From NCBI GenBank assembly GCA_023248635.1, contig JAHFED010000029.1, positions 35,974-73,258 on the forward strand: a stretch of DNA of 37,285 nucleotides, written 5' to 3'. The DNA comes from Myxococcales bacterium (lineage in GTDB: Bacteria; Myxococcota; UBA727; VGSZ01). Within the stretch, counting starts at the first letter, position 1; each line of letters begins with the position of its first letter. The position numbers and the translations under genes are program-made. The notes under the pieces are model-generated. The model did not search any database, was not told the DNA's origin, and was given only the letters and a program-made list of their open reading frames with translations. Positions 3,945 to 33,870 of this stretch are shown here, one piece after another.

Positions 3945-4813
3945 CGCTGTTCTCCAAACCAGCGCACGTATTCGGCGACGCCGGCTGCGACGTCGACGCG
4001 GGGCGCCCAACCGAGGGCCCGGGCCCGCCCGACGTCGGCCATCATCAGGGCCGGATCGCCGGCGCGCGTCGCTCCCGAGAACGTGGGCTCGCCCGCCCCG
4101 AGCGCCCCAAACACCGCCCCCACGATGGCCCGCACGCAGGTCGCTGTGCCGGTGCCGCCGTTGACGATCGGGACCTGCGGAGATGCCGAGCGCGAGGCCG
4201 CCAGCAAGAGCGCGACAGCGTCGTCGACGTGCAGCCAGTCGCGTGCCTCGTCGCCGGTGCCGTGAAAGGTCCGATCGCCCTCGCGTGCCTTGCAGCAGGC
4301 ATCCCACATCAGCTGCTTGCGTTGCCCGGGCCCATACACAGAGAACAGGCGCACGATCACGGCCGCCGTCTGGAAAGTCTGCGCCCACGACGCACAGAGA
4401 GACTCGGCCAGGCGCCGATGGTGTCCATAGGGAGAAGCAGGATGCAGGGGCGCGTCTTCGGCTAGAGGCCGACCTGCTCCGTCGCCATACACGGCGCCAC
4501 TGGAAGCGAGCACCAGCCGCGCCGTCGGCGACGACGTTCGCAGCCATTCGAGCACCTGCGCCAGCGGTGGCAGCGTTTGCTCGAAGTCGATGAGGGGGGC
4601 CTCGAGCGAGCGGCCCACCGAGCTGCCGCCCGCGAGATGAACGACGAGCGACGCGGGGCGATCGATCCCAGCCAGGCCCGCCATGGTGATGGAAGAGCGA
4701 GCGGTGCCCCGACCGACGCCAACGACGTCATGGTCGATGGAAAGAGCACGCACCACCCGCGCCCCGATGAAGCCCGCGGCACCCGTGACGACAGCGAGGG
4801 GTCGCGGCATCAC
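3941..4813 (-). CDS. NAD(P)-dependent sugar epimerase/dehydratase (extended SDR), YxxxR active site
   Basis: The 290-aa protein has the Rossmann motif TGAAGFIG (residues 10-17), an ASSGAVYG catalytic Ser region (about 103-110) and the block SPYGHHRRLAE. The canonical YxxxK lysine is replaced: Tyr129 is followed four residues later by Arg133. Arg at this place is unusual in active SDRs. Members of the family modify nucleotide-linked sugars in the cytosol. It is the second gene of the minus-strand operon (93-nt gap from the GT2 gene, 4-nt overlap with the GT4 gene). The substrate is unknown, and loss of activity is possible. Confidence 0.85.
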   Translation of the reverse strand: MMPRPLAVVTGAAGFIGARVVRALSIDHDVVGVGRGTARSSITMAGLAGIDRPASLVVHLAGGSSVGRSLEAPLIDFEQTLPPLAQVLEWLRTSSPTARLVLASSGAVYGDGAGRPLAEDAPLHPASPYGHHRRLAESLCASWAQTFQTAAVIVRLFSVYGPGQRKQLMWDACCKAREGDRTFHGTGDEARDWLHVDDAVALLLAASRSASPQVPIVNGGTGTATCVRAIVGAVFGALGAGEPTFSGATRAGDPALMMADVGRARALGWAPRVDVAAGVAEYVRWFGEQR

Positions 4814-4906
4814 ATGCCCGTCGGGCGCTCGAGTACCCGCAGACAGCTCATGGTCGCAGCATGCCCGCCGCCCGCAGGCCGCCGCAACTGCCTCCCTCGT
4901 CGACGT

Positions 4907-5746
4907 TCACAGGCGCGCGCGCGCACGGCGTGCACAACGGCGCAAGGTGGCCTCAGCAGCAAAGCGGGCAGCGGCGGCGACGCCGACGACGGGGCCCCAG
5001 TTCTTCTCGTAGAAGGAGCGCTTCCAGACGACATTTTCGTCGAAGCGTTGGTCGAGCAGGTGCTGGGCAAAGGCGCTCCACGACGACGACGCGGGAATCT
5101 TGCGGCCCGCGCGCCCGGCGTCGACATAGACCGAGGCATCGCTGACCACCAAGGGCACTCCCTGGCGTCGGGCGCGCCAGGAAAACTCGAAATCGCTGCC
5201 GTAGTGCGGGAAGCGCTGCCAATCGATGCCACCGACACGCTGATAGGTCGCGATGCTGAGCCCCATGCCCATGCCCGGCAGCCAGCGCAGCGGTCGCCAG
5301 CGGCGACGTCGATGAGAGACGCGTCCCAGCAGCGGGAGGAAGGTGCCGCCGATGGCATAGATGCGATGCGGTGGCGCGGCTTCGACGGCGGTGGAGCCGA
5401 CGACCGCGTCGGGGTGCGCCTGCATCGTGGCCAACAAACGGCGGACGTAGTCGGGCCGAAGCTCCAGGTCGTCGTTGATCATGACCACGCGGCTGCTGAG
5501 CTGGGCGGCGGCGACGGCAGCAATTCCTTCGGCGGTGCCTCGCCCCCAAAACCAGCTCGCGTCACCGCGCACTACATGCACTGGCAGCGGGGCGGCGGCG
5601 AGCATCAAGGCGGTGTCGTCGGTGGAGCCGGCGTCGACGACGACGACGACGAAGTCCTGCTGATCCTGCCGGGCCAGTGCCTGAAGGAAAGTGCGCGTGA
5701 CAGCGGCGCGGTTGTGCACCGGCACGACGAAGGCGACTTCGGCCAT
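4907..5746 (-). CDS. GT2-family glycosyltransferase
   Basis: The 279-aa frame is placed from the ATG at 5746. The open frame continues upstream antisense to fcl, but GT2 similarity begins exactly at MAEVAFVVPVHNR. Motifs in order: VVVDAGSTDDT (nucleotide binding), MINDDLELRPDYV (the metal-binding DD) and GSDFEFSWRARRQG (acceptor-side acidic motif with W). The C-terminus is rich in Arg/Ala, perhaps membrane-associating. It resembles rhamnosyltransferase-type GT2 enzymes, but the sugar is not assignable. It heads the minus-strand operon running to 1340 and is divergent from fcl, with 93 nt between the starts. Confidence 0.87.
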   Translation of the reverse strand: MAEVAFVVPVHNRAAVTRTFLQALARQDQQDFVVVVVDAGSTDDTALMLAAAPLPVHVVRGDASWFWGRGTAEGIAAVAAAQLSSRVVMINDDLELRPDYVRRLLATMQAHPDAVVGSTAVEAAPPHRIYAIGGTFLPLLGRVSHRRRRWRPLRWLPGMGMGLSIATYQRVGGIDWQRFPHYGSDFEFSWRARRQGVPLVVSDASVYVDAGRAGRKIPASSSWSAFAQHLLDQRFDENVVWKRSFYEKNWGPVVGVAAAARFAAEATLRRCARRARARL

Positions 5747-5839
5747 GGCGCCACTGTGGCAGAAGAGACTGCATGATGCGGGGGGTGGTGGTGCATTTCG
5801 GCGGGCGTGCAGTAGGCTGCCCGACGGAACTGAAGCTGC

Positions 5840-6797: not shown

Positions 6798-7907
6798 TCA
6801 CGGCGACCTCGGATGGCGCGCTGCGATCGCGCGCAGCAGCTCGCCCCCGTGTTTGATGATGGACTCCGGTGTTTCGGGTGAGGTGATCAACTTCTGGTCA
6901 GCGACAAAATGCGGAAAGCGCAAGACGTCGCCGTGCTGCTCCGCATCCACCCACAGCTCTGTGGGGATGCCGTGGGTCCACATCACGTAGGGTCGATCGC
7001 TGAACTCAGCGACCACGCCAGGCCCGGATCCCGTGCCGAGATGCCCCGCGGCGCAGGAGACGAGCGCGAGGTCGAGGAGCAGCGATGTGCCGAGCTTCTT
7101 GGCGACGAGGACGTTCGGCAGCTCTTCGCTGAAATGGTCCGCCTCCTCTTGGGATCCGATCAGCACGAAGCCGACGTCGGGGTGCTGCTCGCGTGCGAAG
7201 GCGAAGAAGGCCTTCCAGGCTGCCCATTGGGAATTTCTCTCGGACTGAAATGAGCTGTGCCGCAACTGTACGGTGACGTTGATTCGTGCAGCGGTCTGTC
7301 GCAGGATGTCTGCGGCTTTGCGCTTCGGCTCCTCTACGAAATGAAGCTGCGGCAACGTGCAAAGTCTAATGATGTCATTATGCAGTGAGTAGTGCATGTA
7401 TTCACCAGTGATATACTGCCTCCATTCCGGCCACACATAGTCGTTGCGTGCGGCGTGTGCGAGGAAACTCTCGAAGCCAGCGCGTTCGTCGAAGAGATGA
7501 ACCTGCGCGACACCTGCCGTGTTGCGGGCCACCTCGGCCATCCGGCTGGCGAGAGAGGCAATGTATGCAGGGGGCCAGCCGCGCCAGAGCGAATGACGCA
7601 CCCGCGGATTGCCGAGGAAAGCGACGTCGAGAGTCGCGTGAGCAAAGCGGTCGCGCAGCGCAAGACCCAAGGCTACGAAGGTCAGGGAGTCACCGACGCT
7701 GAGCGGTTGTTTGTGAAAGTCATAGGCGACGACGATGCGCTCGATTCGGCGCCCGCCCCGCTCGCGCTTTCTTTCCTCGATTCGCCAGGTGATCAGATTC
7801 GGTAGGCGACCCGTGAGCAGAAGCCGGGCCCAGTTTTTCCCGGTGCCCAGAGCCGCCCTGAGCTCGCTCGCGCGACGACGAAGCAGGCTGTGCCGGGAGA
7901 GCTTCAT
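6798..7907 (-). CDS. Putative glycosyltransferase-like protein, unassigned family (paralogue of 8097-9707)
   Basis: The start is taken at the ATG at 7907 (369 aa); an upstream ATG at 8015 would add 36 residues. I do not recognise a named family. Near the N-terminus is AYDFHKQPLSVGDSLTF (residues 61-77). In the C-terminal half there is VTVQLRHSS, HPDVGFVLIGSQEE, LPNVLVAKKLG and GTGSGPGVVAEFSDRPYVMW. The last block looks like the donor-binding end of a GT-B enzyme: a Gly/Ser loop, then a short helix, then a P-Y strand. All of these have counterparts in the divergent neighbour. No signal peptide or membrane segment is evident. The 3' end is convergent with fcl, 16 nt away. It probably transfers or handles a sugar of the same glycan, but that is inference from context and fold-like pattern. 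Confidence 0.7.
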   Translation of the reverse strand: MKLSRHSLLRRRASELRAALGTGKNWARLLLTGRLPNLITWRIEERKRERGGRRIERIVVAYDFHKQPLSVGDSLTFVALGLALRDRFAHATLDVAFLGNPRVRHSLWRGWPPAYIASLASRMAEVARNTAGVAQVHLFDERAGFESFLAHAARNDYVWPEWRQYITGEYMHYSLHNDIIRLCTLPQLHFVEEPKRKAADILRQTAARINVTVQLRHSSFQSERNSQWAAWKAFFAFAREQHPDVGFVLIGSQEEADHFSEELPNVLVAKKLGTSLLLDLALVSCAAGHLGTGSGPGVVAEFSDRPYVMWTHGIPTELWVDAEQHGDVLRFPHFVADQKLITSPETPESIIKHGGELLRAIAARHPRSP

Positions 7908-8096
7908 GGCCGCACAGCGTGATATCAGCGGAGCGGTGCTGGCGTCCACCCGCCTTGCGATCCACCGTTCGCCGGACAACGAGTTCACTGGGAGCAGCCA
8001 TTTCGCCCAGGGCAAGTCAGGACCTTGACGCGGCGAACAATACAGACATCACTCTCGTCACGCAGTCATCCTCCGCCACAAATGGAATAGGGACCG

Positions 8097-9707
8097 ATGG
8101 TCGATCCAAGTTATCTTGCAATCTACGATTTTGGGTTGTTTCCATACGCTCTTGGAGATGTTCTTACATGGAACATACAGACAGCAATTCGCTGCGAAGA
8201 GCTGGGCCGTAGCCAAGTCGACATCTATCTTTGTGTGGATGGGAAGCAGCCGGCGAACTATTTCCAGCTCGAGCTGGTCAACACGGATAACTGTGATTTG
8301 ATCTTTAATGAGCTTCTAGCCGCGTTTGGCATGCACCCGAAAATTGGCAATATCTTCATCTACCGACAGCGCGATCAAATGGTGCTTGCTTTGCGCGAGG
8401 CGTGCGGCACAGACACACCGAATTCAAAGGTCTTGGGCGACTACGAAGCGGCTCTGGGCGACTATCAACGTATTCTGACCGCCGGTGAGGGCACGCCCCA
8501 TCTGATGCTGAGTTATTTCTCTAATCACGTAACCTCTCATGATAGAATTAATTCATACGCAGCAGCACATGGCAGCGTTCCGCTCCTGCGCCCCAGCCTG
8601 GGTTGTGGGCCAGACGTGTCCGGGCTGCTGACGAAACGCTTCGCTCGCAACCGCATCGTGACGGTTCACATGCGGCTGCGCCGGCTCGATGCGGGGTATG
8701 GCGGTTCGCACACCTACGCGCGCGACTCTGATTTCGTGGAATGGTACGAGTTTTTGAGGGACGCGGAGAAACATCATCCTGATGTGCAATTTGTTGTCAT
8801 GGGACGCCTGCAGGAGAAGCCGCTCGAATTGCTCCGGCTTCCGAACGTACTCAGTCTGAGGGCGCTGGGCTTGGGCCTGGGGCACGAACTGACCCTGCTC
8901 ATGAACAGCGATCTCTTTATCGGCGCATCCAGCGGGTTTGCGGCGGTGGCCAACTTCTCAAAGACTCCATGTTTTATCACTAAAATGGACCCGGGCGCCT
9001 GCCGCGCCTATGGTATTGCGCCAGGGAGCGCGCGGCTGCCCTTCACGGGCGAGCGCCAGATTCTCGTCCATGAGCCCGAAACCCGGGATCTTCTGCTGCA
9101 GCTGCTGGAGCGAGGACTGCGCGGAGTACCACCACGCAACGGACCCTCCGGTGGGCCCGACGCGGGCATCGATCCTCGAAGCTGGGAATGGGAGCAGTCT
9201 CGCTGGCTTCATCCGGGAGCGACGACGCATCGGTTTTTCACCGATGATGGCTATCGTGAGAAGGAGACCGCCTTTCTCGTCTGGCCCGCGGTGCGAGAGG
9301 CTGCTGCTGCGCGCAAAGGCGGACAGCGAGATCAAGCTTGGACGATGCTCGATCGCCTGGACTCCTGTTTTCCGAGCCTGTGCGCGAAGTTCCCGGACTT
9401 CCTCTCCCTTCGCGCAACGCTGGCGCTCGAGAGGAACAACACCGACATTCTTACCTTGTGCAACGAGCACCTTGCGAAGCTCGGCGTGCCCACTGGGCTT
9501 GCAGTGCTCACCACCGCCCTGAGAAGAGGCTGGCGCCGGAGTTACGGGGCCAGAAAACGAGTGTGGCAGCGGCTCTTTGGTGAGGGGGTCCAGGCAGCAC
9601 GCCCAACGCCGGCGGGCCTTGCCTCCTACATCTGGAACCACCGCCACAAGATTCCTGGGAAGCTGAGGTGGGAGGCGAAGAAGCTCCTGCGTTGGGTGGG
9701 CGCGTAG
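8097..9707 (+). CDS. Putative glycosyltransferase-like protein with a C-terminal helical extension, unassigned family
   Basis: This 536-aa protein begins at the ATG at 8097, preceded by an AGGGA-like ribosome site. It has IYDFGLFPYALGDVLTW at residues 9-25, VTVHMRLRRLD, HPDVQFVVMGRLQE, LPNVLSLRALG and GASSGFAAVANFSKTPCF. These match the divergent neighbour at 6798-7907 in order and spacing, so the two are paralogues. After about residue 345 it carries an extra ~190 residues, helix-rich (EWEQSRWL, RKGGQRDQAWTMLDRLD), perhaps TPR-like, that the neighbour lacks. The first ~450 bases are visibly poorer in G+C than the rest of the gene. The catalytic role is inferred only from fold-like motifs and context. 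Confidence 0.72.
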   Translation: MVDPSYLAIYDFGLFPYALGDVLTWNIQTAIRCEELGRSQVDIYLCVDGKQPANYFQLELVNTDNCDLIFNELLAAFGMHPKIGNIFIYRQRDQMVLALREACGTDTPNSKVLGDYEAALGDYQRILTAGEGTPHLMLSYFSNHVTSHDRINSYAAAHGSVPLLRPSLGCGPDVSGLLTKRFARNRIVTVHMRLRRLDAGYGGSHTYARDSDFVEWYEFLRDAEKHHPDVQFVVMGRLQEKPLELLRLPNVLSLRALGLGLGHELTLLMNSDLFIGASSGFAAVANFSKTPCFITKMDPGACRAYGIAPGSARLPFTGERQILVHEPETRDLLLQLLERGLRGVPPRNGPSGGPDAGIDPRSWEWEQSRWLHPGATTHRFFTDDGYREKETAFLVWPAVREAAAARKGGQRDQAWTMLDRLDSCFPSLCAKFPDFLSLRATLALERNNTDILTLCNEHLAKLGVPTGLAVLTTALRRGWRRSYGARKRVWQRLFGEGVQAARPTPAGLASYIWNHRHKIPGKLRWEAKKLLRWVGA

Positions 9708-20435: not shown

Positions 20436-21431
20436 TCACTGGGGCCCAAAGTTGCGGCGCAAGATTTCGCGGAATTTTTGTTGTTGTTTCTGGTGATGCG
20501 TGCGGCGCGTTGCGTCTGTTTCCCACACCGATTTCTCGCACACCTCCAGATGGGCCAGGAGCTTGCCGTGCAGCATTTCCCGATCTGACGCTGCGAGCGC
20601 ATTAACAATTGGAGCCAAGTAGTTCATCTCAGCCAACTCGAAAATAAGATCCAGACCCACCGACCCGATGCGATTGTTCAAAGCAAAGAGAACAGAGCGA
20701 AAAAGCAGCGCCCCAGATTCTTGAGGTGCCTGAGCGGCCCACTTGGGCAGCGGCGGCGTCTTCAGGAAAATTGCATCTGCCCATGCCGGAACACCATCAG
20801 CTACCGACTCGCTGAATGGACCGGAATCCGTCGACACACCGGCCTCGCCTGAGCCACATTTTTCAATGCGAATCAGTCGAAATCCGTTGCCAAACATGAA
20901 CGCCAACACACGATCGAAGAGGGGCTGACCTCGGTACACAGAAAGGAATTCGACTTCGACGCGCACAGAAAGAACGCAGCGGGCCAGCACATTGGTCGCC
21001 CCCTCCAGGATCGCGAGAGATGCTCCCTGGGCGTCAATGGTGAGACTGTCGGGCGCCTCCCCCCTGCTCTTGGCGATTTCGTCGATGGTCGTACAATCCA
21101 GCGTCGTCGTCTTCAGATGCCGCACGTCGGAATATCTGAAGCGGTGCGTAATCTTTTCATCGAACAGAAATGTACTTGAGAGTGTCGGTATATCGTAGAC
21201 GTGAAAATCAATCGGTCCATTGTGGCTGAACACAGGACGCGCTTCGACAAACATCCGCGTATTCTTATCAGCCCCCTTTTCGGCCGCCGCTTTAAGCTCT
21301 GCAGCCGCGGACTCTTCTGCGTCAAAACAGACGTAATTTACTACGCCAGGATAATCGATCCAGGCTCGGTGCATCCCTCCGGCCGCACCGACGTGATAAA
21401 CAGTTGTGTGAATTTGATCAGACTTGGTCAT
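20436..21431 (-). CDS. FkbM-family methyltransferase
   Basis: The 331-aa protein has a short SAM loop, YHVGAAGGMHRAW, at the N-terminus and the FkbM block TTTLDCTTIDEIAKSRG, LTIDAQGASLAILEGA, VRVEVEFLSVYRGQPLF. The usual Glu of the DxQGxE segment is Ser here. FkbM-type enzymes O-methylate sugars or lipids. The C-terminal ~100 residues, ending in a Gln/His/Lys-rich tail, go beyond the standard domain. It is the last gene of a minus-strand run 27111-20436 and clearly AT-richer than the genes on its left, suggesting later acquisition. The substrate is unknown. Confidence 0.84.
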   Translation of the reverse strand: MTKSDQIHTTVYHVGAAGGMHRAWIDYPGVVNYVCFDAEESAAAELKAAAEKGADKNTRMFVEARPVFSHNGPIDFHVYDIPTLSSTFLFDEKITHRFRYSDVRHLKTTTLDCTTIDEIAKSRGEAPDSLTIDAQGASLAILEGATNVLARCVLSVRVEVEFLSVYRGQPLFDRVLAFMFGNGFRLIRIEKCGSGEAGVSTDSGPFSESVADGVPAWADAIFLKTPPLPKWAAQAPQESGALLFRSVLFALNNRIGSVGLDLIFELAEMNYLAPIVNALAASDREMLHGKLLAHLEVCEKSVWETDATRRTHHQKQQQKFREILRRNFGPQ

Positions 21432-21444
21432 ATTAAAGATGCCT

Positions 21445-22338
21445 TCAGCGTGGTTCGGTGTTCGTTGCCGCCGTAATGAGCTCGCGTATCGCGTCGCTCA
21501 TTGAGATGAATCGATGGGGGCCAGCCGCTGCCAATATTTTGGTGTTTCGCAGCGCCATCGACACCTTCGGCCTCGTCCTGGCCCGCTCCTCGACGTTCAC
21601 GGCGCGCCCGAGCTGGGTTCCTATCTGGGATAGTATTTCTCGATATGAAACAGCGCCGCCGCTGCATAGATTATACGTCCCCACAATTTTTCGTTCAGCC
21701 ACTAGGTCCATTACTGCGCATACATCTCGAATATGAATGAAGTCCCTAATCTCCTCGCCATCGCCCCAAATCCTGATGCACTCGCCGTCGAGTGCGCGTC
21801 GGATAAAGCCCGGCGGAAGATAGTATTCGTCGGCGTTCCTATTACCATAAACTAAAGACGGACGGAGAATGGTAAGAGCCAATCCTGGTTGCTGCTCAGC
21901 CAACAGCGCAGCAGCCTGTTCGCAGGCCAGCTTGGCAACTCCGTAGTAATTTGATGGAGCGGGTACCGTTTCTTCAACAATGTTTAGATTGGTCACTCGC
22001 TCACCGTAGACGGCCGCCGAACTGAGATAGATCAGATGTCGAATTTGCCGTTCCTGGAGCAAGCGCAGCACATTTGAAACCATCAGAATGTTTTTTTCGA
22101 AGACTGCTAAATCGTCATGGACCCATTTTTGAATCGCGGAGCAATGGATCAGAATGGCATCTTCATCCAGATGTGGAGCCAGCGTGGTGACGGCATCAAA
22201 ATCGGTTAGATCCATCTCAGACGAGGAAAACCCGAGAACAGGAACGTGGACATGTCGCTGCTGAAAATACTCCAACAAATGAGAGCCAATAAAGCCTGAG
22301 TGCCCCAGCAATATGATCTTGGAACAGTCCTTCACCAT
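21445..22338 (-). CDS. NAD-dependent sugar epimerase/dehydratase (extended SDR)
   Basis: The 297-aa protein has LLGHSGFIGSHL (GxxGxxG), a catalytic LSSAAVYGE region, YYGVAK (complete YxxxK), TILRPSLVYGNRN and GEEIRDFIHIRDV. The organisation fits UDP-glucose 4-epimerase-like and dTDP-sugar reductase-like enzymes. It has low G+C like its neighbours and lies 13 nt upstream of the FkbM gene in the same operon. It probably finishes a nucleotide sugar used by the local glycosyltransferases; stereochemistry cannot be told. Confidence 0.85.
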   Translation of the reverse strand: MVKDCSKIILLGHSGFIGSHLLEYFQQRHVHVPVLGFSSSEMDLTDFDAVTTLAPHLDEDAILIHCSAIQKWVHDDLAVFEKNILMVSNVLRLLQERQIRHLIYLSSAAVYGERVTNLNIVEETVPAPSNYYGVAKLACEQAAALLAEQQPGLALTILRPSLVYGNRNADEYYLPPGFIRRALDGECIRIWGDGEEIRDFIHIRDVCAVMDLVAERKIVGTYNLCSGGAVSYREILSQIGTQLGRAVNVEERARTRPKVSMALRNTKILAAAGPHRFISMSDAIRELITAATNTEPR

Positions 22339-22404
22339 GCCGCACCCACTTGAGGCTGCCGACCGTATCGCCGGACGTGCGGCGACTTCGAGTTGCGAAG
22401 GGTC

Positions 22405-24783
22405 TCAACCATCATCAGGGGCCATCTCCTTCGGTGGGTCGGGGACCAGCACGCAGCGAAATCCGCGGTCCCAAAATGCCTGGTCGGGGTAGTCCCTCCG
22501 CAGCGGTCCCAACAAACGCTGAGCCTTGGCGGGCGTCGCCAGGTCACTCCAATGGTCCGCCCACCCGCCCCCTTTGGAGACCTTGAACCGCGGGTCGCTG
22601 GCGCTGTCCAGGCACCACTCCCACACGTTGCCAAAGACATCGCTGAGCCCGAGTTCGTTCGGCTGCCGGCTGCCAATGGGTGCAGTACTCCAGCGAACTT
22701 CGTCGTCTGAAGTCACTGCCGTGGCAGGCGAGATGGATGGAGTAGAAAGCTGATCGAACTCGGCCAGCGTCGGCAGCCGATAGCCAAATCCGGGCGGCAG
22801 CGTCGCGTTGCGCCGCTCGAGTTCAGTCAGTCGACCGCAGAAATCGACGGCGTCGTTCCATGAAACGCGCTCGACCGGACGAAATGGATCCTTGAATAAG
22901 CTGGGATTGTGTTTCATTATATTTTCATACTGTCTTTGAGTCGTCTCGAACCTGCTCGCCCACCATCCCCAGGGTGTGCGCACGAATCTCATTCCCTGAT
23001 CGTTGGTGAAGTCGCTTTCAGGGCTCTCGCTCCCCACCTCCGCGCCATCCGAAATGTTGTCGAATTCGTGCTGCACCGGATGCGTCGCGCCCTTCAATAT
23101 CCTGGTCTTTACGGTCACAAGAGACGCCAGGAATTCGTCGAGCGCCGCGGGAGTTCCAAAATGGCGTAGCGCGAAATACCGGACCGCCAGGTGCGCATCC
23201 GTTTCGGCATTGCGATGTCTTTCGGCTACTAGCTCAATCTGCTGTCCTGAAGGATCAACATCATTGAATTCGTTCGGTAAGACGGTGGTTCGAAGCAGCG
23301 CGGTTTCGATCTCATTTGGCGAATAAAATGCCCCGTTCCTTGGTGCTGCACGCGAGACCAGACGCGTCAAGTCGCCGAAATATCGCTTGAACCCATACAC
23401 CCCATAAACCGCTTGTCCGGTGAATGAGTAGTTGTCCATCAATATGATGGAACTATGGCGTACCACCTCATTCTTGCTGGCTACATGTAGGAGAGAACGG
23501 CTGAAGATCCATTCCGCTCGTTCGGAAAGATAGACGGCTGGAATCTGGCAGCCAAGCAGGATGACGGCGACGGCGACGGCGGCCGACAGCCACCGACTCG
23601 TTCTACGTCCCCCGCGGTAGGCGATCGCCCTGAAGGCGGCAAACAACAGCACAGCAGCAGGCAGCGTTGTCAGGATGCAATAGCGACTCGGATCGCCGAC
23701 GGGCGTCGGCGAGCAGCTCTTGCCGGCCGCCGCGTAGGGAAAAATCGCGAGCACGAGAAGGACCCCACCGAAGCTGGCCATCGACAGCGTCGTCCGGGGG
23801 CCGCGCGCGAGGCTCCACCGGTGGCGGCCGGCAAGCGCGTAGCACATTCCAATTCCAAGAAGGGAGACCACGACGAAATGCTGAGACGACCAATGGGCCA
23901 GATTTTGGATGTGGTATTTGGGCATCGCGCTCAAGAACGACGCAAAATTTGCAGGCAGCCGCGCGAGATTCTCGATCGGACTGTTGTATTTCTCATACCA
24001 GCCATACTGCGGCGTGACGATCTGCCTCGCCGCCCATGCGGCGGGTGGCAGGAGAGTGAGTTCAGGATAGCGCGCCAAAAATTGGGGTAGCGCTGACCTC
24101 CACTTCAAGCCTGTCAGCTGGCAACGGTGGAATAAGAACAAGAGCCAGAATCCCGCATAGAACACCAGCAGGGCAGCATTAGAAAAGCTTGCTGTGAAGG
24201 TGCCGACCGCCAATAAGCGAAACGCCCAATGACTCTGGCCAGTTCGACGCTCGGCCGCCAACGAAAAGGCAATACCCAGGAAGAAAAGCAGCTCCGTTAA
24301 TAAAAAAAAGCACATCACGAGATCCTGCGCCGCCGTAAAAACCGGCATCGCAAGCGATAGAAGCGAGATGCTGACCGCCTCGCTGCGATTGATGCGAGCC
24401 ATGTCAATCGCAATATTATAGGCAAGAACATGCACACCTAACAGACAAGAAAATGACGCAATCATCACACATGGCACCACTTCTGGCGCCGCGGAAAATG
24501 CTCGGTACATCCAGCCATACTGTGGAATTCCGACGGCACCAAAGAACTCGTGCAGTGGCGCCCAATTTTTGGTCTCGACCCAGCTCAGGACGTACCAGCC
24601 ATCCCAAATCGGTCCGTCGTTAGTCAGCAGTAATCCATGACAAAGTAGCGCCCCGACGCAGATCAGCAGACAATGCCTGATTCGGGTCTGGGAAGACGAC
24701 GCAGCGACTGCAAGCGACGCTGGCGGCTGCGTCGATGACGTCGTCGTGGCCTCGTCCTCAAGATCTCGCATTTCCGTCGACAC
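22405..24783 (-). CDS. Polytopic membrane protein (GT-C-like) fused to a C-terminal FGE/SUMF1-like domain
   Basis: This 792-aa protein starts at a GTG sharing one base with the stop of the upstream FkbM gene. Residues ~35-420 hold roughly ten or more hydrophobic segments, with a periplasm-type loop near the start containing DGWYVL, as in GT-C-like sugar transferases. Residues ~420-590 are soluble. Residues ~590-785 form a formylglycine-generating-enzyme/sulfatase-modifying-like domain: GWWASRFETTQRQYE, PVERVSWNDAVDFCGRL, YRLPTLAEFD, GLSDVFGNVWEWC, KGGGWADH, WDRGFRCVLV. The paired Cys that make true FGEs catalytic appear missing; only the Cys of GFRC is kept in that area. The domain may therefore be a binding module (the fold is related to C-type lectins). 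I know of no described protein with this fusion. AT-rich segments suggest transfer. Confidence 0.78.
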   Translation of the reverse strand: MSTEMRDLEDEATTTSSTQPPASLAVAASSSQTRIRHCLLICVGALLCHGLLLTNDGPIWDGWYVLSWVETKNWAPLHEFFGAVGIPQYGWMYRAFSAAPEVVPCVMIASFSCLLGVHVLAYNIAIDMARINRSEAVSISLLSLAMPVFTAAQDLVMCFFLLTELLFFLGIAFSLAAERRTGQSHWAFRLLAVGTFTASFSNAALLVFYAGFWLLFLFHRCQLTGLKWRSALPQFLARYPELTLLPPAAWAARQIVTPQYGWYEKYNSPIENLARLPANFASFLSAMPKYHIQNLAHWSSQHFVVVSLLGIGMCYALAGRHRWSLARGPRTTLSMASFGGVLLVLAIFPYAAAGKSCSPTPVGDPSRYCILTTLPAAVLLFAAFRAIAYRGGRRTSRWLSAAVAVAVILLGCQIPAVYLSERAEWIFSRSLLHVASKNEVVRHSSIILMDNYSFTGQAVYGVYGFKRYFGDLTRLVSRAAPRNGAFYSPNEIETALLRTTVLPNEFNDVDPSGQQIELVAERHRNAETDAHLAVRYFALRHFGTPAALDEFLASLVTVKTRILKGATHPVQHEFDNISDGAEVGSESPESDFTNDQGMRFVRTPWGWWASRFETTQRQYENIMKHNPSLFKDPFRPVERVSWNDAVDFCGRLTELERRNATLPPGFGYRLPTLAEFDQLSTPSISPATAVTSDDEVRWSTAPIGSRQPNELGLSDVFGNVWEWCLDSASDPRFKVSKGGGWADHWSDLATPAKAQRLLGPLRRDYPDQAFWDRGFRCVLVPDPPKEMAPDDG

Positions 24784-25703
24784 TACGGAGCTCGCTCCAA
24801 GAAAAGGTTCGTGTGCTGTCGTTCCTTTTCGAGGTGTGCCAGCGAAGCGATGCTGTTGATTGGCACCAATTTATGGTGGTCACCGTCGATTTCGAAGATC
24901 TGAAAGCCGTATTCAAGAAATTGCTCTAACAAGAGTGTCGGGGACCTTCCGGTCTGGCGAATCCCCCAAGGCCAGTACTCGATCAGTATTTTGATTTTCG
25001 GACTCTCACGCAGCATCAAATCCATTCCTTGCAACACAAATGATTCAAATCCTTGCGTGTCTATTTTGAGCACATCGACAGCGACGGCATTGAGCTCCTT
25101 CATCAGGAAATCAAGTGTAATCATCTCGATCTCGATGCGTTCACGATCCCCAGAAATATCATATACTCTGTGGTCGGCCTTATTGGTTTCGCACAAGAAA
25201 AGCGCGGCGGGCCCGCACCTTTCGCCCGCGGCTTTCTGCACTACAGAGACACACGAAAATGCATTGCGTTTAATGGTCTTTCTGATGAACGCACAGTTCT
25301 CCGCGCCGGGCTCCACGGCCACAACCATTCCAGCGGGGCCGACGACGGCGGCGCCGATGGCGGTGTAGAGCCCGATGTTCGCGCCGACGTCAACGACGCA
25401 CATTCCGGGTTTCAAGAGCGATTGAAAGAACTCGAGGTTGAAAGGTTCATAGCAACCAAGCGCAACGGTGCCAGAAACAATGGCGTCTTGCTGATTCAAC
25501 ACAAGTGTGATGCCGTGAATTTCAACTTCCTTTGGAATCAGTAATCGGATGGCAGATTGGGCCAGTCTCCTGATGGGAGCTGGCTTCAATAGTACTGTGT
25601 AGATATAGGCTGCCGCTGACGGTGGCAGCCACCAGAGCAACCCACGCCGACGTCCAGAGCGGAGATTACCATTGGGTTGACTTTCCATCTTGTTTCTCAG
25701 CAA
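24783..25703 (-). CDS. FkbM-family methyltransferase, second copy
   Basis: The 306-aa protein carries VVDVGANIGLYTAIGAAVVG (SAM motif I), VAVEPGAENCAFI, MITLDFLMKEL and VLKIDTQGFESFVLQGM, the full FkbM pattern with the conserved Asp, Gln and Glu. The N-terminus contains a hydrophobic WWLPPSAAAYIY stretch that could associate with the membrane. The first start at 25703 overlaps the preceding gene by 38 nt; Met6 at 25688 is an alternative. Unlike the copy at 20436, this one keeps the canonical active-site residues, so it is the more likely active sugar O-methyltransferase. The gene is AT-rich. Confidence 0.87.
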   Translation of the reverse strand: MLRNKMESQPNGNLRSGRRRGLLWWLPPSAAAYIYTVLLKPAPIRRLAQSAIRLLIPKEVEIHGITLVLNQQDAIVSGTVALGCYEPFNLEFFQSLLKPGMCVVDVGANIGLYTAIGAAVVGPAGMVVAVEPGAENCAFIRKTIKRNAFSCVSVVQKAAGERCGPAALFLCETNKADHRVYDISGDRERIEIEMITLDFLMKELNAVAVDVLKIDTQGFESFVLQGMDLMLRESPKIKILIEYWPWGIRQTGRSPTLLLEQFLEYGFQIFEIDGDHHKLVPINSIASLAHLEKERQHTNLFLERAP

Positions 25704-27111
25704 TAATCACCGCTTGTATGAACAGGTCTTGAACATCAAATCGATAATTAATCAGTGTGAAGTTGGCGCGCGCTAGCAGTTCCTCCGCTTGGTGGCGGCC
25801 GCGCAAGAGCGAGATCTCTGGCGGATGCAGGGGAGACTTGTTCTCCCCCAGGCGACGGCGAACGGCGTGTACACCGCGCAGCACGGCGACACTCGTAGCT
25901 CTGCTGTGCGGCCAAAAGAGTACGAGCTTGCCTTGCGGCCGGAGCACGCGGTGAGACTCAGAGAGAATTGTGGCGATGGCTTCGGGGGTGAAGTGCTCCA
26001 TGACCCCGAGGTTGTAGACGCCGTCGAAGGTTGCCGCGGGGAAGGGCATGTCGAGAATGCTGCCGTGCTGCACCAGCGCCGCGAGGGGATTGTGTCGAGC
26101 ATAGAGGCTGAGGGCGGCGGCGGAGATGTCGAGCGCAGTGATGCGCATCGTGCGTTGGAGGTCCACATCCACCTGGCCGCTGCCACAGCCGGCGTGCAAC
26201 AACGACGACCCAGGTGCAAAGGTGCGCTGGATTGCGCGGTTTAGATTTCGCCGAATGAATGTGCGCCGATAGGCGCTGGCTATTAATCCGTATACTGCTC
26301 CTCCCTGGTCGTTTTTCTTATCCCAATAGGTGTCCCAATTCTGCGGATCGCGGAGCTCCGCATCAAGCTCTATCCCCGATGCGTTCATCAGAAAATGCGT
26401 GGGATCTCGAACGTTTTTCAGAAAAAGATCGAAGACGAATCCACCGCTCTTTGCAATGGCGGAAAAGTCCATCTTGGAGTGGCCGTAGGTGCGAGCAGGA
26501 AGAACGATGGGGATCTCGGCGATGGAAAAACCGTTCCGATTGAGGACGAAGAGGCTCTCGAAGAAAAAGGCGTAGCCGCGCGCTCGGACGAGATCGAACA
26601 GCCGACGGGGCACACGATCAAGCCGGTAGGCGCGAAAGGCACCGGTCGCGTCCTGGGGGATCTCCAGCACCCGCTCGGTGAGGACCCGCCCCAGCTTGGT
26701 GAGAGAACGCCGCGGGAGATTCCAGCCCGGCAGGCTGTTTTCGCTCATCCACCGCGAGCCGACGGCGGCGTCGCAATCACCCACCGCTGCCATGAGCGTG
26801 GGGATGTCCGAGGGCGCATGGGTGAAATCGCAATCCAGGGTGACGAGGAGCTCGTAGCCCTGATCGTAGGCCCACTGGATGCCGTCAAGGTGAGCGCTGC
26901 CGATCCCGAGCTTAGCTGCGCGGTGGTGGACGATGAGTCGGGGAAAGCTGGCCCGGAGCCCCTCCAGCAGCTCGCCGGTGCCGTCAGGCGAGCCGTCGTC
27001 TACAAAGAGCAAGTCGGCATCCAAACCAAGCTGGCTAATTTCTCGGACCATCCGAGGCGCATTCTCGGACTCATTGTATGTCGGAACGAAAATGAGAGTC
27101 TTTCTTGGCAT
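25666..27111 (-). CDS. DPM1-like GT2 glycosyltransferase fused to a class I SAM methyltransferase
   Basis: Start at the ATG at 27111 (481 aa); the open frame upstream has no family-like content. Residues 1-235 are a polyprenol-phosphate mannosyl/glucosyltransferase-type GT2 domain: IFVPTYNESEN, FVDDGSPDGTG, TLDCDF (metal-binding Asp near 93-95), then the RTYGHSKM block. Residues ~255-481 are a methyltransferase: NWDTYWDKKNDQGG, LLHAGCGSGQVD (motif I, ~304-315), LDISAAALSLY, NLGVMEHF and VLRPQGKLVLFW. No transmembrane pair follows the GT2 domain, so the protein should be cytosolic. It may make a polyprenol-phospho-sugar and methylate it, or act on linked steps. The gene heads the minus-strand operon. 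Confidence 0.86.
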   Translation of the reverse strand: MPRKTLIFVPTYNESENAPRMVREISQLGLDADLLFVDDGSPDGTGELLEGLRASFPRLIVHHRAAKLGIGSAHLDGIQWAYDQGYELLVTLDCDFTHAPSDIPTLMAAVGDCDAAVGSRWMSENSLPGWNLPRRSLTKLGRVLTERVLEIPQDATGAFRAYRLDRVPRRLFDLVRARGYAFFFESLFVLNRNGFSIAEIPIVLPARTYGHSKMDFSAIAKSGGFVFDLFLKNVRDPTHFLMNASGIELDAELRDPQNWDTYWDKKNDQGGAVYGLIASAYRRTFIRRNLNRAIQRTFAPGSSLLHAGCGSGQVDVDLQRTMRITALDISAAALSLYARHNPLAALVQHGSILDMPFPAATFDGVYNLGVMEHFTPEAIATILSESHRVLRPQGKLVLFWPHSRATSVAVLRGVHAVRRRLGENKSPLHPPEISLLRGRHQAEELLARANFTLINYRFDVQDLFIQAVIIAEKQDGKSTQW

Positions 27112-27269
27112 AAGCGTCGCGGTGCCTAATGCAGTGAACCGACGTCCGGGTGCCCGACCGTAGCGCAGGACTGCAGCCTGAGCGACCCGACGGACTTCTG
27201 GCCACGGCGCTGGCAGCCCTCGAGGCCCGGCGCTTTGCGCGAGGCCGACCCACAGCGCTACTGAGCCCC

Positions 27270-28259
27270 ATGCAGTTTCCACGTCTCTTCATCACCGGCG
27301 CTGGCGGCTACGTTGGCAGCGCACTCGTCCCAGCCCTCCTGGCCCGCGGCCACGACGTCGTCGCTTACGACCTCTTCCTCTACGGCGACGTGCTCGCTCC
27401 CCATGCCAACTTGCGCCTGGTCAAAGGGGACATCCGCGACGCCGCCCACGTCGTGAAAGCTTCCGCTGGCTGCGACGCCGTCATCCACCTCGCCTGCATC
27501 TCCAACGATCCTTCCTTCGACCTCGATCCCGCCCTGGGCAGGGCGATCAACTACGACGCTTTCCGCAACGTCATCGACGCCTGCACGCACAACCAGGTCC
27601 GGCGGCTCATCGTCGCCAGCTCGACCTCGCAGTATGGCGTCAAGCCCGCTCACGTGGACGTCACCGAGGACATCGAGGCCGAGCCCATCACCGACTACGC
27701 GCGCTTCAAGATCGCCTGCGAGCGGATGCTGCTTCAGGCGCCGACGTCGTCGTTGGAGTTCGTCTTCGTGCGGCCGGCGACCTTGTGCGGCTACGCCCCG
27801 CGCTTGCGGCTCGACCTCAGCGTCAACATCCTCACGATCAACGCCCTGGTGAATCGCAAGATCAAGGTCTTCGGCGGCGACCAGATGCGACCGGCGCTGC
27901 ACATCCTCGACATGGTGCGCTTCTACGAGCTGATGCTCGAGGTGCCTGCCGAGAAGATCCACCGCCAAGCCTTCAACGTCTCCTACGGCAACCTCACCAT
28001 TCTCGAGATCGCCCAGCTGGTGAAGGAGACCCTCGGAGACGACGATGTGGCCCTGGAGGTGACGCCGTCGAGCGACCCACGCAGCTATCGGGTCAACACG
28101 GACAAAGCCGCGCGCGTGTTGGGCTTCCACTGCACGCACGATCTGCGCGCTGCGGTCTTGAGCCTGCGCGATGCCTGGCAGGCCGGCAGGCTCAGCGATC
28201 CGCTCGAGAATCCAATGTATTACAATATTAAGCGCATGAAGCAGCTTGATCTGAGGTAG
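27270..28259 (+). CDS. NAD-dependent sugar epimerase/dehydratase (extended SDR)
   Basis: The ATG at 27270 (329 aa) is chosen because FITGAGGYVGSAL, the dinucleotide motif, begins at residue 7; the frame is open 120 nt further. It continues with VIHLACISNDPSF, VASSTSQYG, DYARFKIACE (YxxxK), FVRPATLCGYAPR and LHILDMVRFYELML. Members are common in O-antigen and heptose loci as nucleotide-sugar epimerases or reductases. It pairs with the next SDR gene 5 nt downstream. It is divergent from the GT2-methyltransferase gene, with 158 nt between starts. The final ~15 codons turn AT-rich. Confidence 0.86.
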   Translation: MQFPRLFITGAGGYVGSALVPALLARGHDVVAYDLFLYGDVLAPHANLRLVKGDIRDAAHVVKASAGCDAVIHLACISNDPSFDLDPALGRAINYDAFRNVIDACTHNQVRRLIVASSTSQYGVKPAHVDVTEDIEAEPITDYARFKIACERMLLQAPTSSLEFVFVRPATLCGYAPRLRLDLSVNILTINALVNRKIKVFGGDQMRPALHILDMVRFYELMLEVPAEKIHRQAFNVSYGNLTILEIAQLVKETLGDDDVALEVTPSSDPRSYRVNTDKAARVLGFHCTHDLRAAVLSLRDAWQAGRLSDPLENPMYYNIKRMKQLDLR

Positions 28260-29277: not shown

Positions 29278-29982
29278 TCAGTTCGTCGTCGGCTGGTCGC
29301 TGACAACGACACCGTCGCCGATCTCAATCACGCGTCGGCAGAACGACGCAACCAGCACCGGATCGTGGCTGACGAGCAGCACGGTGACGCCGCCGTCGGC
29401 CAGGGAGCGCATCTTCTCCAGGCACCGGGCCTGAAAAGCGACGTCGCCGACGGCCAGGGTCTCGTCGACCAATATGATGTCGGCGTCGACGTGGACGGCG
29501 ACGGCGAACCCGAGACGCGCCTGCATGCCGGAGGAGTAGAAGCGCACCGGCGTGTCGATGAACTCGGCCACACCAGCGAAGGCGACGATCTCATCGAAGC
29601 GATCGTTGGCCTCTTTGCGGGTGAGGCCAAGCAGCACGGCGTTCAGCAGCAGGTTCTCCCGACCGGTGAGGTCCAAAACGAGACCCGAGGTGATCTCGAT
29701 CAGGGGAGACACGCGTCCGCCGACGTCGATGACACCGCGTTCGGGCTGCAGAATCCCACTCATGATGCGAAAGAGCGTGCTCTTGCCCGCACCATTCTTG
29801 CCGATGATCCCGACGCGCTCGCCGGGTTTCACCCGCAGCGAAACGCCGCGCAGCACCTGGCGGCGCTCGGTGAGCGGCTCGCGCCGCACGATTCGAATCG
29901 CCGACTCCTTGAAGGAGCGCGAATGGTAGGCGCGGAAGCTCTTGTGAACGTCGTCGAGCAGGATCTCACCGGCGCTGACCAT
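29278..29982 (-). CDS. wzt: ABC transporter ATPase for polysaccharide export (Wzt/KpsT/TagH type)
   Basis: The 234-aa product has Walker A GKNGAGKST (61-69), signature SSGMQARL (150-157), Walker B IILVDETLAVGD (169-180) and the switch His in VSHDPVL. The pattern RFYSSGMQARLGFAVAV is the polysaccharide-exporter variant. The N-terminal region, KSFRAYH, is also typical. The protein ends soon after the nucleotide-binding domain and lacks the C-terminal carbohydrate-binding domain found on Wzt proteins that recognise terminally modified O-antigens. It follows the permease gene with a TGATG junction. It powers export of the finished, lipid-linked glycan across the inner membrane. Confidence 0.92.
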   Translation of the reverse strand: MVSAGEILLDDVHKSFRAYHSRSFKESAIRIVRREPLTERRQVLRGVSLRVKPGERVGIIGKNGAGKSTLFRIMSGILQPERGVIDVGGRVSPLIEITSGLVLDLTGRENLLLNAVLLGLTRKEANDRFDEIVAFAGVAEFIDTPVRFYSSGMQARLGFAVAVHVDADIILVDETLAVGDVAFQARCLEKMRSLADGGVTVLLVSHDPVLVASFCRRVIEIGDGVVVSDQPTTN

Positions 29983-30767
29983 CAGATCAGATCCGAAACG
30001 GTGGATTGCGTCCTGCGAAAGAACACGACGCCTGCGACCAAGATGAGCGCGCTGCCTACGACGGCCACCGTCAGGGCCAACGTCGACGGGTAGCGTTCGT
30101 TCGAGGCAAGACCACTAAAGCAGCCCAGAATTCCCACCAACGGGTTCAGCTCGTAGGCACTCACCAGCCAGCGGGGAACCTTCGACACTGGATAGATGAT
30201 CGGGCAACCATAAAAGCCGAGCCGGAGGGCGAAGCGCACCAGGAAGCCGGTATCGCGCAAGATCACCTGCAGCGCCGCGGCAACGAGGCTCAGTCCCGTC
30301 GTCAACGCCACGATCAGCACGCAGCCCACCAGCACCAGGGGAGCGCTCGACCAGTGCAGCGCCGCGCCGCGCGCGGTCCAGACGATGGCCCAAAGGAAGG
30401 CCAGGCCCAGGCCCAACACCAGCGTCGTGAAGCGCGCGACGACGAGGCTCACGACCAGCAGCTCGCGTCGAAAGGAAATCTTGCGCACCAGAGCCGCATG
30501 GTCGAGCAACACACCGCTCGCATTGTCGATGGTCGTCGAGAAGAACAACCAAGGCAGCACGCTGAAAATGATGAAGAGGGGATAGCTCTCGACGCTGTTT
30601 CTGCCGCCCAGCACGAAGCCAAAGACCAAGACGTAGACGACGACGTTCATCATCGGCTCGGCCAGGGCCCACGCCACGCCCAGCCATGAGCGCTTGTAGC
30701 GAACGGTCAGCTCGCGCCAGACCAGCACCCAGGCCAGGTCGACAGAATTGCTTCGAGCAGCGCTCAC
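29982..30767 (-). CDS. wzm: ABC-2 type polysaccharide export permease (Wzm/KpsM/TagG type)
   Basis: A GTG at 30767 gives 261 aa with the N-terminal WRELTVRYKRSWLGVAWAL signature of Wzm/TagG permeases. About six hydrophobic segments follow: VYVLVFGFVLG, FIIFSVLPWLFF, the long segment after RFTTLVLG, the VALTTGLSLVA region, FYGCPIIYPVSKVP and the C-terminal VGSALILVAGVVFF. LNPLVGILGCF near the end is also diagnostic. It pairs with the ATPase encoded downstream (TGATG overlap). The start lies 1 nt after the stop of sctV, so these genes may share a message although their functions differ. Confidence 0.92.
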   Translation of the reverse strand: MSAARSNSVDLAWVLVWRELTVRYKRSWLGVAWALAEPMMNVVVYVLVFGFVLGGRNSVESYPLFIIFSVLPWLFFSTTIDNASGVLLDHAALVRKISFRRELLVVSLVVARFTTLVLGLGLAFLWAIVWTARGAALHWSSAPLVLVGCVLIVALTTGLSLVAAALQVILRDTGFLVRFALRLGFYGCPIIYPVSKVPRWLVSAYELNPLVGILGCFSGLASNERYPSTLALTVAVVGSALILVAGVVFFRRTQSTVSDLI

Positions 30768-30768
30768 G

Positions 30769-32922
30769 TCAGCCCAGGCTGATGCGGGCGATGGGTTGGA
30801 TGTTCATCTCTGGGCTCAGCTCCTGATAGGAAAGCACCGCGAGATGGGGAAATTCAAGCTCCACCAATTTCCGGAAATAGCGCCGGATTTCCATCGTCGT
30901 CAACACCACGGGCTGCTGCGCCGACGGCGGCAGATTCCCGACTTCGTTGCGCACCGCCGCCAGGATCTCCTGCGTGATCTCAGGCTCGAGCGCCAGGTAG
31001 CTGCCCGAGCTGGTGTGCTGCACCGACGAACGCACCGTCTCTTCGATCTGCGGATCCAGCAAATACACAATCAACGTCGACTGACCACGCGTATACTTAT
31101 GTGAAATATAACGCTTCAACGCCGCACGCACATACTCGGTGAGCATGACGGTGTCGTTCTCGACCGGGCCCCACTCGGCCAACGCCTGCAGGATGTTGCG
31201 CAAGTCGCGGATGGAGATTTCCTCCTCGACCAGGCGGCGCAAGATGTCGGTCAGCTGGAAGGGCGAAACGGCCTTCGGCACCACCTCTTTGACCAGGGCC
31301 GGGAACGCCTGCTCGAGCTGCTCGAGCATGTTCTGGGTCTCCTGAATCCCAACGAATTCAGCAGCGTTCTTTCTCAGCACCGCCGACAAGTGCAACACAA
31401 CATAACCAGGAGCATCCCAAGTGGTGAGGCCGGCGTCTTCGGCGAGCTTGCGCTGATCCATCGAGATCCAGCCGCAGGCGTTGCCGTTGGCGGGGTTCTG
31501 CGCGGGCTCGGCCTCGATGCCCAGCAAGCGCAGGCGATCGGGCGTGTCGTTGACCAGGCACTTGTTCTTATCGACCGTTCCCATCACCAAGGGAATTTCA
31601 TTCACCATGATGATGTAGCTGCCCGGTGGCAAATCACCCTCATTGCCGCGCACACGCAAGCCCGGATAGCGAACGCCAAGCTCGTAGAACAACCCGTCCC
31701 GCATCATGGGAATGAGCTCGTTCAAGAAGTTGGATCCGCCGGTGTCGTCGACGAGGGGCACCAGGTCGGCGGCGACTTCGAGGGCGATGGGCGTGACCAC
31801 CGGCATCATCTGCGCCGACTGTCCTTCTTGGGCCTTGGCCTTCTGCACGGCCGCCTTCTTCTCCTCCTTGACCGCTTCTTCGCGCTGCTCGACGACGGCG
31901 CCGCTGCCACCGCCTCCGCCGTTCTTGGCGTCCGCCGACTTCTTCAGGCCGTAGGCGAGGCCGCCGACGGAGACGGCGACGATGGTGAAGGGGATGCCGG
32001 GCAAACCGGGGATCATGCCGATGGCCATGATGAAGCCCGAGGCGATGATGAAGGCCTTGGGCTGCGCCAGCACCTGCATCGCGAGGTCTTTGCCGAGGTT
32101 GCTGTCCTCTTCCTCCGACGCCACGCGGGTCACGATCAAGCCGGCGCACAGCGACATCAAGAGCGCGGGAATGATGGCCACCAGGCCTTCGCCGATGGTC
32201 AAAATCGAATAGGTCTCGACGGCTTCGGCAGCGGTCATGCCCTTCTGGGTCACGCCGATGATGATGCCGGCGACGATGTTAATGGCGACGATGATCAAGC
32301 CGGCGATCGAATCGCCCTTCACGAACTTCATCGCGCCGTCCATCGAGCCGAAGAGCTGCGATTCGCGACCGAGATCGTTGCGGCGGCGGCGGGCTTCGTC
32401 GAGGTCAAAAGCGCCAGCGCGCAGGTCGGCGTCGATGGACATCTGCTTGCCCGGCATGGCGTCGAGGGTGAAGCGGGCAGCGACTTCGGCGACGCGCTCG
32501 GAGCCCTTGGAGATGACCAGGAAGTTCACCAGCATCAAGACCAAGAAGATGACGGCGCCGACGACGAAGTTCCCTTGCACGACGAACTTGCCGAAGGATT
32601 GGATCACTTCGCCGGCGTGGGCGTGCAGCAAAATCAGGCGCGTCGAGCTCACGTTCAGCGAGAGCCGAAACATGGTCGTGACGAGGATGATGGTCGGAAA
32701 GGACGCCAGCTTCAGGGCCTGGGGGATGTACATCGCGATCAACAACATGATCACGCTGACGCTGATGTTCACGACCAGCAGCACGTCGAGCAGCGGCGTG
32801 GGGACGGGGATGATCATCATCCCGACCACGAGCATCACGAGGATGGCCAGGCCGATGTCGGCGTAGCGCTTCAGCACGGTGACCAGGTCACCTTGCGTGA
32901 TGATGTCGAGGAACTTCTTCAC
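30769..32922 (-). CDS. sctV: Type III secretion export apparatus protein, SctV (FlhA/HrcV/InvA family)
   Basis: The 717-aa protein has ~7 N-terminal membrane segments (within residues 22-330), the FHIPEP family signature around RFTLDAMPGKQMSIDADL (150-167), a Gly/Lys/Glu-rich linker (~335-380) and a large cytosolic domain to the end. The closing part, QPVVLTTMEIRRYFRKLVE ... VLSYQELSPEMNIQPIARI, favours the virulence-type SctV over flagellar FlhA. In injectisomes, the cytosolic domain forms a nonamer that receives substrate-chaperone complexes. No other secretion gene is seen in the window. Its stop touches the wzm start. It is divergent from the AbiE pair (171 nt between starts). Confidence 0.9.
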   Translation of the reverse strand: MKKFLDIITQGDLVTVLKRYADIGLAILVMLVVGMMIIPVPTPLLDVLLVVNISVSVIMLLIAMYIPQALKLASFPTIILVTTMFRLSLNVSSTRLILLHAHAGEVIQSFGKFVVQGNFVVGAVIFLVLMLVNFLVISKGSERVAEVAARFTLDAMPGKQMSIDADLRAGAFDLDEARRRRNDLGRESQLFGSMDGAMKFVKGDSIAGLIIVAINIVAGIIIGVTQKGMTAAEAVETYSILTIGEGLVAIIPALLMSLCAGLIVTRVASEEEDSNLGKDLAMQVLAQPKAFIIASGFIMAIGMIPGLPGIPFTIVAVSVGGLAYGLKKSADAKNGGGGGSGAVVEQREEAVKEEKKAAVQKAKAQEGQSAQMMPVVTPIALEVAADLVPLVDDTGGSNFLNELIPMMRDGLFYELGVRYPGLRVRGNEGDLPPGSYIIMVNEIPLVMGTVDKNKCLVNDTPDRLRLLGIEAEPAQNPANGNACGWISMDQRKLAEDAGLTTWDAPGYVVLHLSAVLRKNAAEFVGIQETQNMLEQLEQAFPALVKEVVPKAVSPFQLTDILRRLVEEEISIRDLRNILQALAEWGPVENDTVMLTEYVRAALKRYISHKYTRGQSTLIVYLLDPQIEETVRSSVQHTSSGSYLALEPEITQEILAAVRNEVGNLPPSAQQPVVLTTMEIRRYFRKLVELEFPHLAVLSYQELSPEMNIQPIARISLG

Positions 32923-33093: not shown

Positions 33094-33870
33094 ATGAGTG
33101 GCCCGGTGCCGTTGTTGTCAGACCGCGCCGTGGTTGAAGTGTTCCACCTCGTGTTCTTGCGGACGCTCCTCGCCGGCACGACGGAGAAGGCGCACATCGC
33201 GATCAAGGGCGGGTGCAACCTGCGCTTCTTCTTCGGCAGCCAGCGCTACTCCGAGGACCTCGACCTCGACGTCGCCGTCATCGCGCCACACACCTTGAGA
33301 AAGGACGTCGAAAAGGTGCTGTCGGGGTCACTGCTGGCGCGGCAGCTGACGGCGCTGGGGATCGGCCTCGGCGACACCAGCGCCCCGAAGCAAACCGAGA
33401 CGACCCAGCGGTGGAAGGTGCAACTGCGAAGTGCCGGCGGGGCAGCCATGCCGACGAAGATCGAGTTCTCGCGTCGCCCGATCACGGGTTCGGCGGAGCT
33501 GGCCAGCATCGACCGCAGGCTGCTGGATGCCTACCGTTTGCCGCCAGTGCAGGCGCGCCACTACCTCATCGATGACGCCATCCGCCAGAAGATCGTGGCC
33601 CTCGCCGATCGCGACGTGGCCCAAGCGCGTGACGTCTTCGATCTCGACCTGCTCCTCACACATTCAGGCGGGAAGCTGCCAGCGGCCGACACCCTGACGA
33701 GGGAGCTCCAACAAGGCCGAGAGCGGGCGCTGAGCATCCAGTACGACGACTTCGTCGCCAAGGTGGTCGCCTACCTCGAACCCGAGGAGCAGCCGCTCTA
33801 CCAAACACCCGAAATCTGGGAGGCGATCCAGCTGCACGTTGCCGAGGCTCTCGATCGGATGGTCCCTTGA
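33094..33870 (+). CDS. abiEii: AbiEii/AbiGii-family nucleotidyltransferase toxin (type IV toxin-antitoxin)
   Basis: The 258-aa protein has the AbiEii core: IAIKGGCNLRFFFGSQRYSE (split: KGGCNLRF at 38-45, RYSEDLDLD at 51-59), the nucleotidyltransferase metal site; a mid-domain IEFSRR; IRQKIVALADRDVAQARDVFDLDLLL, in which the RDVFDL segment is a family hallmark; and a C-terminal helical end. Characterised relatives transfer nucleotides to tRNA or GTP-dependent targets and stop growth, some with phage-abortive effect. It precedes the AbiEi-type gene (25-nt gap), which reverses the usual antitoxin-first order. Promoter and palindrome lie directly upstream. Confidence 0.87.
   Translation: MSGPVPLLSDRAVVEVFHLVFLRTLLAGTTEKAHIAIKGGCNLRFFFGSQRYSEDLDLDVAVIAPHTLRKDVEKVLSGSLLARQLTALGIGLGDTSAPKQTETTQRWKVQLRSAGGAAMPTKIEFSRRPITGSAELASIDRRLLDAYRLPPVQARHYLIDDAIRQKIVALADRDVAQARDVFDLDLLLTHSGGKLPAADTLTRELQQGRERALSIQYDDFVAKVVAYLEPEEQPLYQTPEIWEAIQLHVAEALDRMVP

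Follow-up and report, generated by a model that had tools for sequence, protein, structure and literature searches.

We found that an open reading frame on the minus strand (22405..24783) of the window, which is the whole 37,285-nucleotide stretch of Myxococcales DNA analysed here, encodes a 792-aa protein in which the open frame and Pfam place a polytopic membrane part, a soluble stretch and a C-terminal domain resembling the formylglycine-generating enzyme (FGE) in a single chain. This protein is probably an inner-membrane GT-C-type transferase that moves a lipid-linked sugar to O-polysaccharide and uses its FGE-like domain as an acceptor-binding module. More tentatively, a dead FGE domain may have been taken up as a lectin-like reader of acceptors by a family of transferases that depend on polyprenyl-phosphate sugars and fall outside Pfam. 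Each half of the protein has precedents, and the joined form was found only once; in the open-licence literature searched, we found no description of a GT-C enzyme paired with an FGE-like domain, and an FGE-like type of CBM for GT-C enzymes is not described there. FGE-like domains occur widely among bacteria, mostly with no known role; the attachment of the present one to a probable sugar transferase within a defined pathway makes its role directly testable. The protein is also a sign of an uncharacterised family of membrane proteins found alongside GtrB/DPM1-type synthases in O-antigen clusters from Myxococcota and Legionella.

The membrane part covers aa 36-417 (23533..24678, minus strand). 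When hydropathy was averaged over three homologous sequences, we observed 10 clear hydrophobic segments and a weaker 11th at aa 241-258, close to the ten or so segments claimed in the preliminary description; we set the limits of the segments manually on the hydropathy profile, and the TM count is an estimate. Together with a positive-inside count, this gives a prediction of about 11 TM helices with the N-terminus in and the C-terminus out. Beyond the last TM, alignment and topology place a soluble stretch (aa 418-560; 23104..23532, minus strand) that is present in all three family members and matches the soluble middle part described earlier. Under the 11-TM model, the K+R fraction is 0.16-0.19 in the assumed cytoplasmic loops and 0.06-0.10 in the periplasmic loops in 3/3 family proteins. 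Because K+R density is about twofold higher in the cytoplasmic loops, the N-terminus is placed inside and the ~140-residue stretch and the FGE-like domain outside, so that the periplasmic position suggested for the C-terminal domain holds as a prediction.

GT-C enzymes are recognised by 7-13 TM helices, a first large extracytoplasmic loop after TM1 and an acidic residue shortly after TM1. In the predicted topology of about 11 TM, loop 1 after TM1 is 50-53 aa long in the three homologues, and just after TM1 lies Asp61, in a W-D motif of the first predicted periplasmic loop (codon at 24601..24603, minus strand). In the three-sequence alignment, Asp61 is the sole acidic residue ahead of the last TM that is invariant (3/3). 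The catalytic residue of GT-C enzymes usually lies just after TM1, and Asp61 is likely to be the catalytic base, judging from its conservation and place. In profile searches of the ORF with Pfam and NCBIfam, the membrane part matched no family, and the AlphaFold2 model of this part, with only 2 sequences in the alignment, had a pLDDT of 36. Nor was there any signal when the profile of the membrane part was compared with that of PMT_2 proteins from the same genome, which, with only 3 versus 5 sequences, says little. The earlier GT-C-like assignment of the membrane part thus stands on topology and on the donor-synthase gene in the operon, but not on a profile match or on the model; we regard the GT-C reading as supported by gene context and topology.

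The membrane-part family as defined here has three members. In addition to the window protein, there is a homologue of 560 aa from an Anaeromyxobacter MAG (24% identity over aa 41-553, E 9e-26) and one of 527 aa encoded on a plasmid of Legionella adelaidensis (23% identity to the window protein over 395 aa; E 2e-11 in a one-to-one comparison), and these two match each other with E 3e-17. Neither homologue carries an FGE domain, and the C-terminus of each falls near the point at which the FGE-like domain starts in the window protein. A full-length alignment was set aside, as the Anaeromyxobacter protein was misplaced in it. Of the searches for membrane-part homologues, the genome-contig search yielded only the Anaeromyxobacter MAG and the plasmid search yielded the Legionella protein, and none were found in viral contigs (three queries) or in phages. 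A search of 195 + 384 relatives, with few candidates scored per genome, returned only the two members already known. Samples from two other phyla gave nothing convincing, and a weak match over 64 positions in another phylum's sample was judged unrelated.

In the window, the gene directly upstream encodes an FkbM-family methyltransferase (24783..25703, minus strand; Pfam/NCBIfam), and its stop overlaps the GTG start of our ORF by one base (TAGTG). Two genes upstream sits the presumed donor synthase (25666..27282, minus strand), a dolichol-phosphate-mannose-synthase-related GT2 fused to a class I methyltransferase (5mlz, PF00535, PF08241); the GT2 matches 5mlz (DPMS) with E 6e-19 over aa 53-276, and the true start of this ORF is probably near 27111. 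The next downstream gene encodes an NAD-dependent sugar epimerase/dehydratase (21445..22338, minus strand; Pfam), and there is a second FkbM-family methyltransferase gene at 20436..21431 (minus strand; Pfam/NCBIfam). Wzt/Wzm-type ABC exporter genes (29278..30767, minus strand) suggest an ABC-dependent O-polysaccharide cluster. Three further ORFs in the same cluster (4577-5776, 6798-8015 and 8097-9707; 399-536 aa) have no Pfam match, and two of them show faint similarity to the TIGR04372 glycosyltransferase profile. Adjoining the polysaccharide cluster is a gene for SctV, a type III secretion export gate (30769-32922, minus strand; TIGR01399 above cut-off, 826 bits), and an AbiEii-like nucleotidyltransferase gene lies at 33094-33870 (plus strand).

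Each of the three family members is encoded in an O-antigen-type cluster that also holds a polyprenyl-phosphate-sugar synthase of the GtrB or DPM1 type. In the Anaeromyxobacter MAG, a GtrB-like GT2 gene (E 5e-47 to 5ekp, sll0501, GtrB) ends 6 bases ahead of the homologue's start, and the homologue adjoins Wzm/Wzt and CDP-sugar genes. In the Legionella cluster, the GT2 matches 5ekp with E 3e-55, and a GtrA gene (PF04138, E 2.5e-15) and an O-antigen-ligase-family protein are also encoded. In Legionella, the methyltransferase has a gene of its own after the GtrB-like gene, whereas GT2 and methyltransferase form one chain in the window. Since such a synthase is present in the window, Anaeromyxobacter and Legionella clusters, it is the recurrent partner of the family. 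No GtrA-family flippase (PF04138) was found in the source genome, a draft of 135 contigs that is 96.7% complete, so the flippase, if there is one, would be of another family.

On the transferase reading, the DPM1-like GT2 would load a sugar onto polyprenyl phosphate at the cytoplasmic face of the membrane, and some flippase would turn the charged lipid over to the other side. In the periplasm, the membrane part, with Asp61 as base, would then pass the sugar to O-polysaccharide, and the FGE-like domain may act there as an acceptor-binding module, by analogy with the CBMs of GT136, EmbC and AftD. The system is like GtrA/GtrB/Gtr O-antigen glucosylation in that a membrane protein is encoded with a GtrB or DPM1-type synthase, and the Legionella homologue has GtrA too; however, none was found in the source genome, and the window protein has no Pfam link to known Gtr proteins and carries the extra FGE-like domain. 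In GT136, the catalytic Asp follows TM1 and the periplasmic domain after TM11 is a CBM (Kelly et al., 2024; PMC11127046), and EmbA/B/C and AftD likewise carry CBMs (PMC11127046). Similar to GT136 ORF12 of Citrobacter youngae, the window protein is polytopic, with an Asp past TM1, a periplasmic domain after about TM11 and a donor synthase within the same polysaccharide cluster. In contrast, the C-terminal module of ORF12 is an immunoglobulin-like CBM where that of the window protein is FGE-like, and the GT136 donor route is phosphoribosyl-based; the likeness drawn here is one of layout.

The FGE-like domain (PF03781, C-type-lectin superfamily; aa ~593-785; 22429..23007, minus strand) was delimited by Pfam, alignment and model and is the part that both homologues lack. 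That the C-terminal domain is FGE-like, as stated in the preliminary description, is confirmed by PF03781 (FGE-sulfatase) at aa 613-778, with E 8e-18 and a score of 65.4 bits (cut-off, 23.3); NCBIfam gave only weak FGE-type matches to the same region. The AlphaFold2 model of the domain has a pTM of 0.65, with block pLDDT of 77-92 in the core; confidence is low midway along the domain and around the former cysteine loop. When the model was compared by VIA-align, the top matches were TvpA (2y3c; Z 15.7, 167 residues, 3.1 Å), CarF, PvdO, PorK (Z about 12) and FGE (Z about 11), the last being the fold comparison that had been proposed earlier. Foldseek concurs (TvpA, FGE, PorK), EgtB and SenA also match the model, and PorK is in addition among the close sequence matches. 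TvpA, the best structural match, is a DGR variable protein with a C-type-lectin-like fold, and homology shared between FGE and C-type-lectin domains accounts in part for its rank. An origin of the domain as a DGR variable protein was rejected: we found no template-repeat copy of the gene's C-terminal DNA in its own draft genome, where the gene itself was the sole match, no local repeats around the gene and no sign of diversification. Because there is no template-repeat copy in the genome, the resemblance to TvpA is one of fold only.

The match to PorK bears on what the domain binds. PorK (T9SS) has an FGE fold without the cysteines, binds PorN via the old substrate groove and serves as a docking scaffold (PMC12421860), so an FGE fold that has shed its cysteines can take on the part of an extracytoplasmic binding scaffold. 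With its own FGE-like fold, lost cysteines and predicted extracytoplasmic place, the window domain could be a docking or protein-protein module of the PorK/GldK kind on a GT-C-like membrane part, and no glycan binder, a reading to which we give a limited chance and which the structural and sequence matches to PorK favour. PorK itself differs: it is a lipoprotein that forms part of a ring, carries large insertions and is not fused to a polytopic protein. Against the docking reading, the FkbM methyltransferases and the donor synthase of the window, which would be the obvious partners, are expected in the cytoplasm, whereas the FGE-like domain is predicted to be periplasmic; and the C-terminal periplasmic modules of known GT-C enzymes serve acceptor binding (PMC11127046). 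By analogy with those modules, acceptor binding is the most likely role of the FGE-like domain.

For the membrane part, a Wzy-like O-antigen polymerase or another polytopic polysaccharide-assembly protein without transferase activity is an alternative that fits a polytopic protein in O-antigen clusters with no family match, but we consider it improbable. ABC-dependent polysaccharide assembly requires no Wzy, and Wzm/Wzt-type exporters are encoded both in the window and in the Anaeromyxobacter cluster. Moreover, the Legionella cluster already carries its O-antigen-ligase-family protein, and the 50-residue loop with an invariant Asp directly past TM1 is the layout of a GT-C transferase, the reading that we prefer.

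The preliminary description had also claimed that the catalytic Cys pair is absent while the motifs NVWEWC, GGGWADH and GFRC remain, and we found both to be so. In an alignment with the Cys-bearing FGE-type ORFs L035 and L057 (GGSHLCAPNYCLRYR), the stretch from Asp743 to Leu748 (22540..22557, minus strand) spans the FGE cysteine-pair positions, which are occupied by these two residues, and the middle of the domain is shorter than in relatives. The domain shares its Pfam family and fold with SUMF1 (formylglycine-generating enzyme), but the catalytic cysteines are replaced; because the alignment shows both to be gone, the domain cannot act as such an enzyme. The loss is real but ordinary, although it had been presented as notable: by a simple motif, 33/107 FGE-type ORFs at loci from the same phylum have the pair and about 74/107 do not, in a sample of search matches with some overlapping loci that is not a census. 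The source genome has about 14 FGE-type genes, this one included. Only one other of the 107 ORFs is polytopic, a 651-aa protein from another genome of the phylum (L106, 2548-4503, minus strand) in which about 10 TM are predicted and an FGE-like domain forms the C-terminus; it was rejected as a relative, the two membrane parts being unrelated. That the window domain retains some other catalytic function, such as oxidising or modifying a sugar or peptide in the manner of PvdO or EgtB/OvoA, seems to us very doubtful: PF03781 does include enzymes without the FGE cysteine pair, and PvdO, EgtB and SenA match structurally, but here both cysteines are missing, the centre of the domain is shortened, and the DinB-like domain with iron-binding histidines found in the EgtB/OvoA sulfoxide synthases is not matched in the protein (Pfam).

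The ORF is a single open frame of 792 codons with a GTG start and no internal stop, in agreement with the single chain claimed earlier. We looked for frame evidence of two merged genes and found none: in the linker, no start codon is accompanied by an obvious ribosome site, there is no signal peptide in front of the FGE part, and GC3 in the two halves (0.64 and 0.70) is at the low level of the local island, compared with 0.80-0.85 for the genes on either side and an average of 0.79 across the genome's remaining FGE-type genes. Fusion of two adjacent genes by a sequencing or assembly error is unlikely, with very little probability left to it, although both homologues stop just where the FGE-like domain starts and the fusion was found once, in one genome: the frame is continuous, the two halves share their low GC3, the start overlaps the upstream gene, and an FGE part on its own, lacking a signal peptide, would remain cytoplasmic. 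The searches turned up no other copy of the fused gene, which leaves the artefact a small residual probability. The low-GC island itself extends over 20436-27282 of the window, with a GC content of 54-58% over most of its length and GC3 of 0.56-0.69, which suggests horizontal gain.
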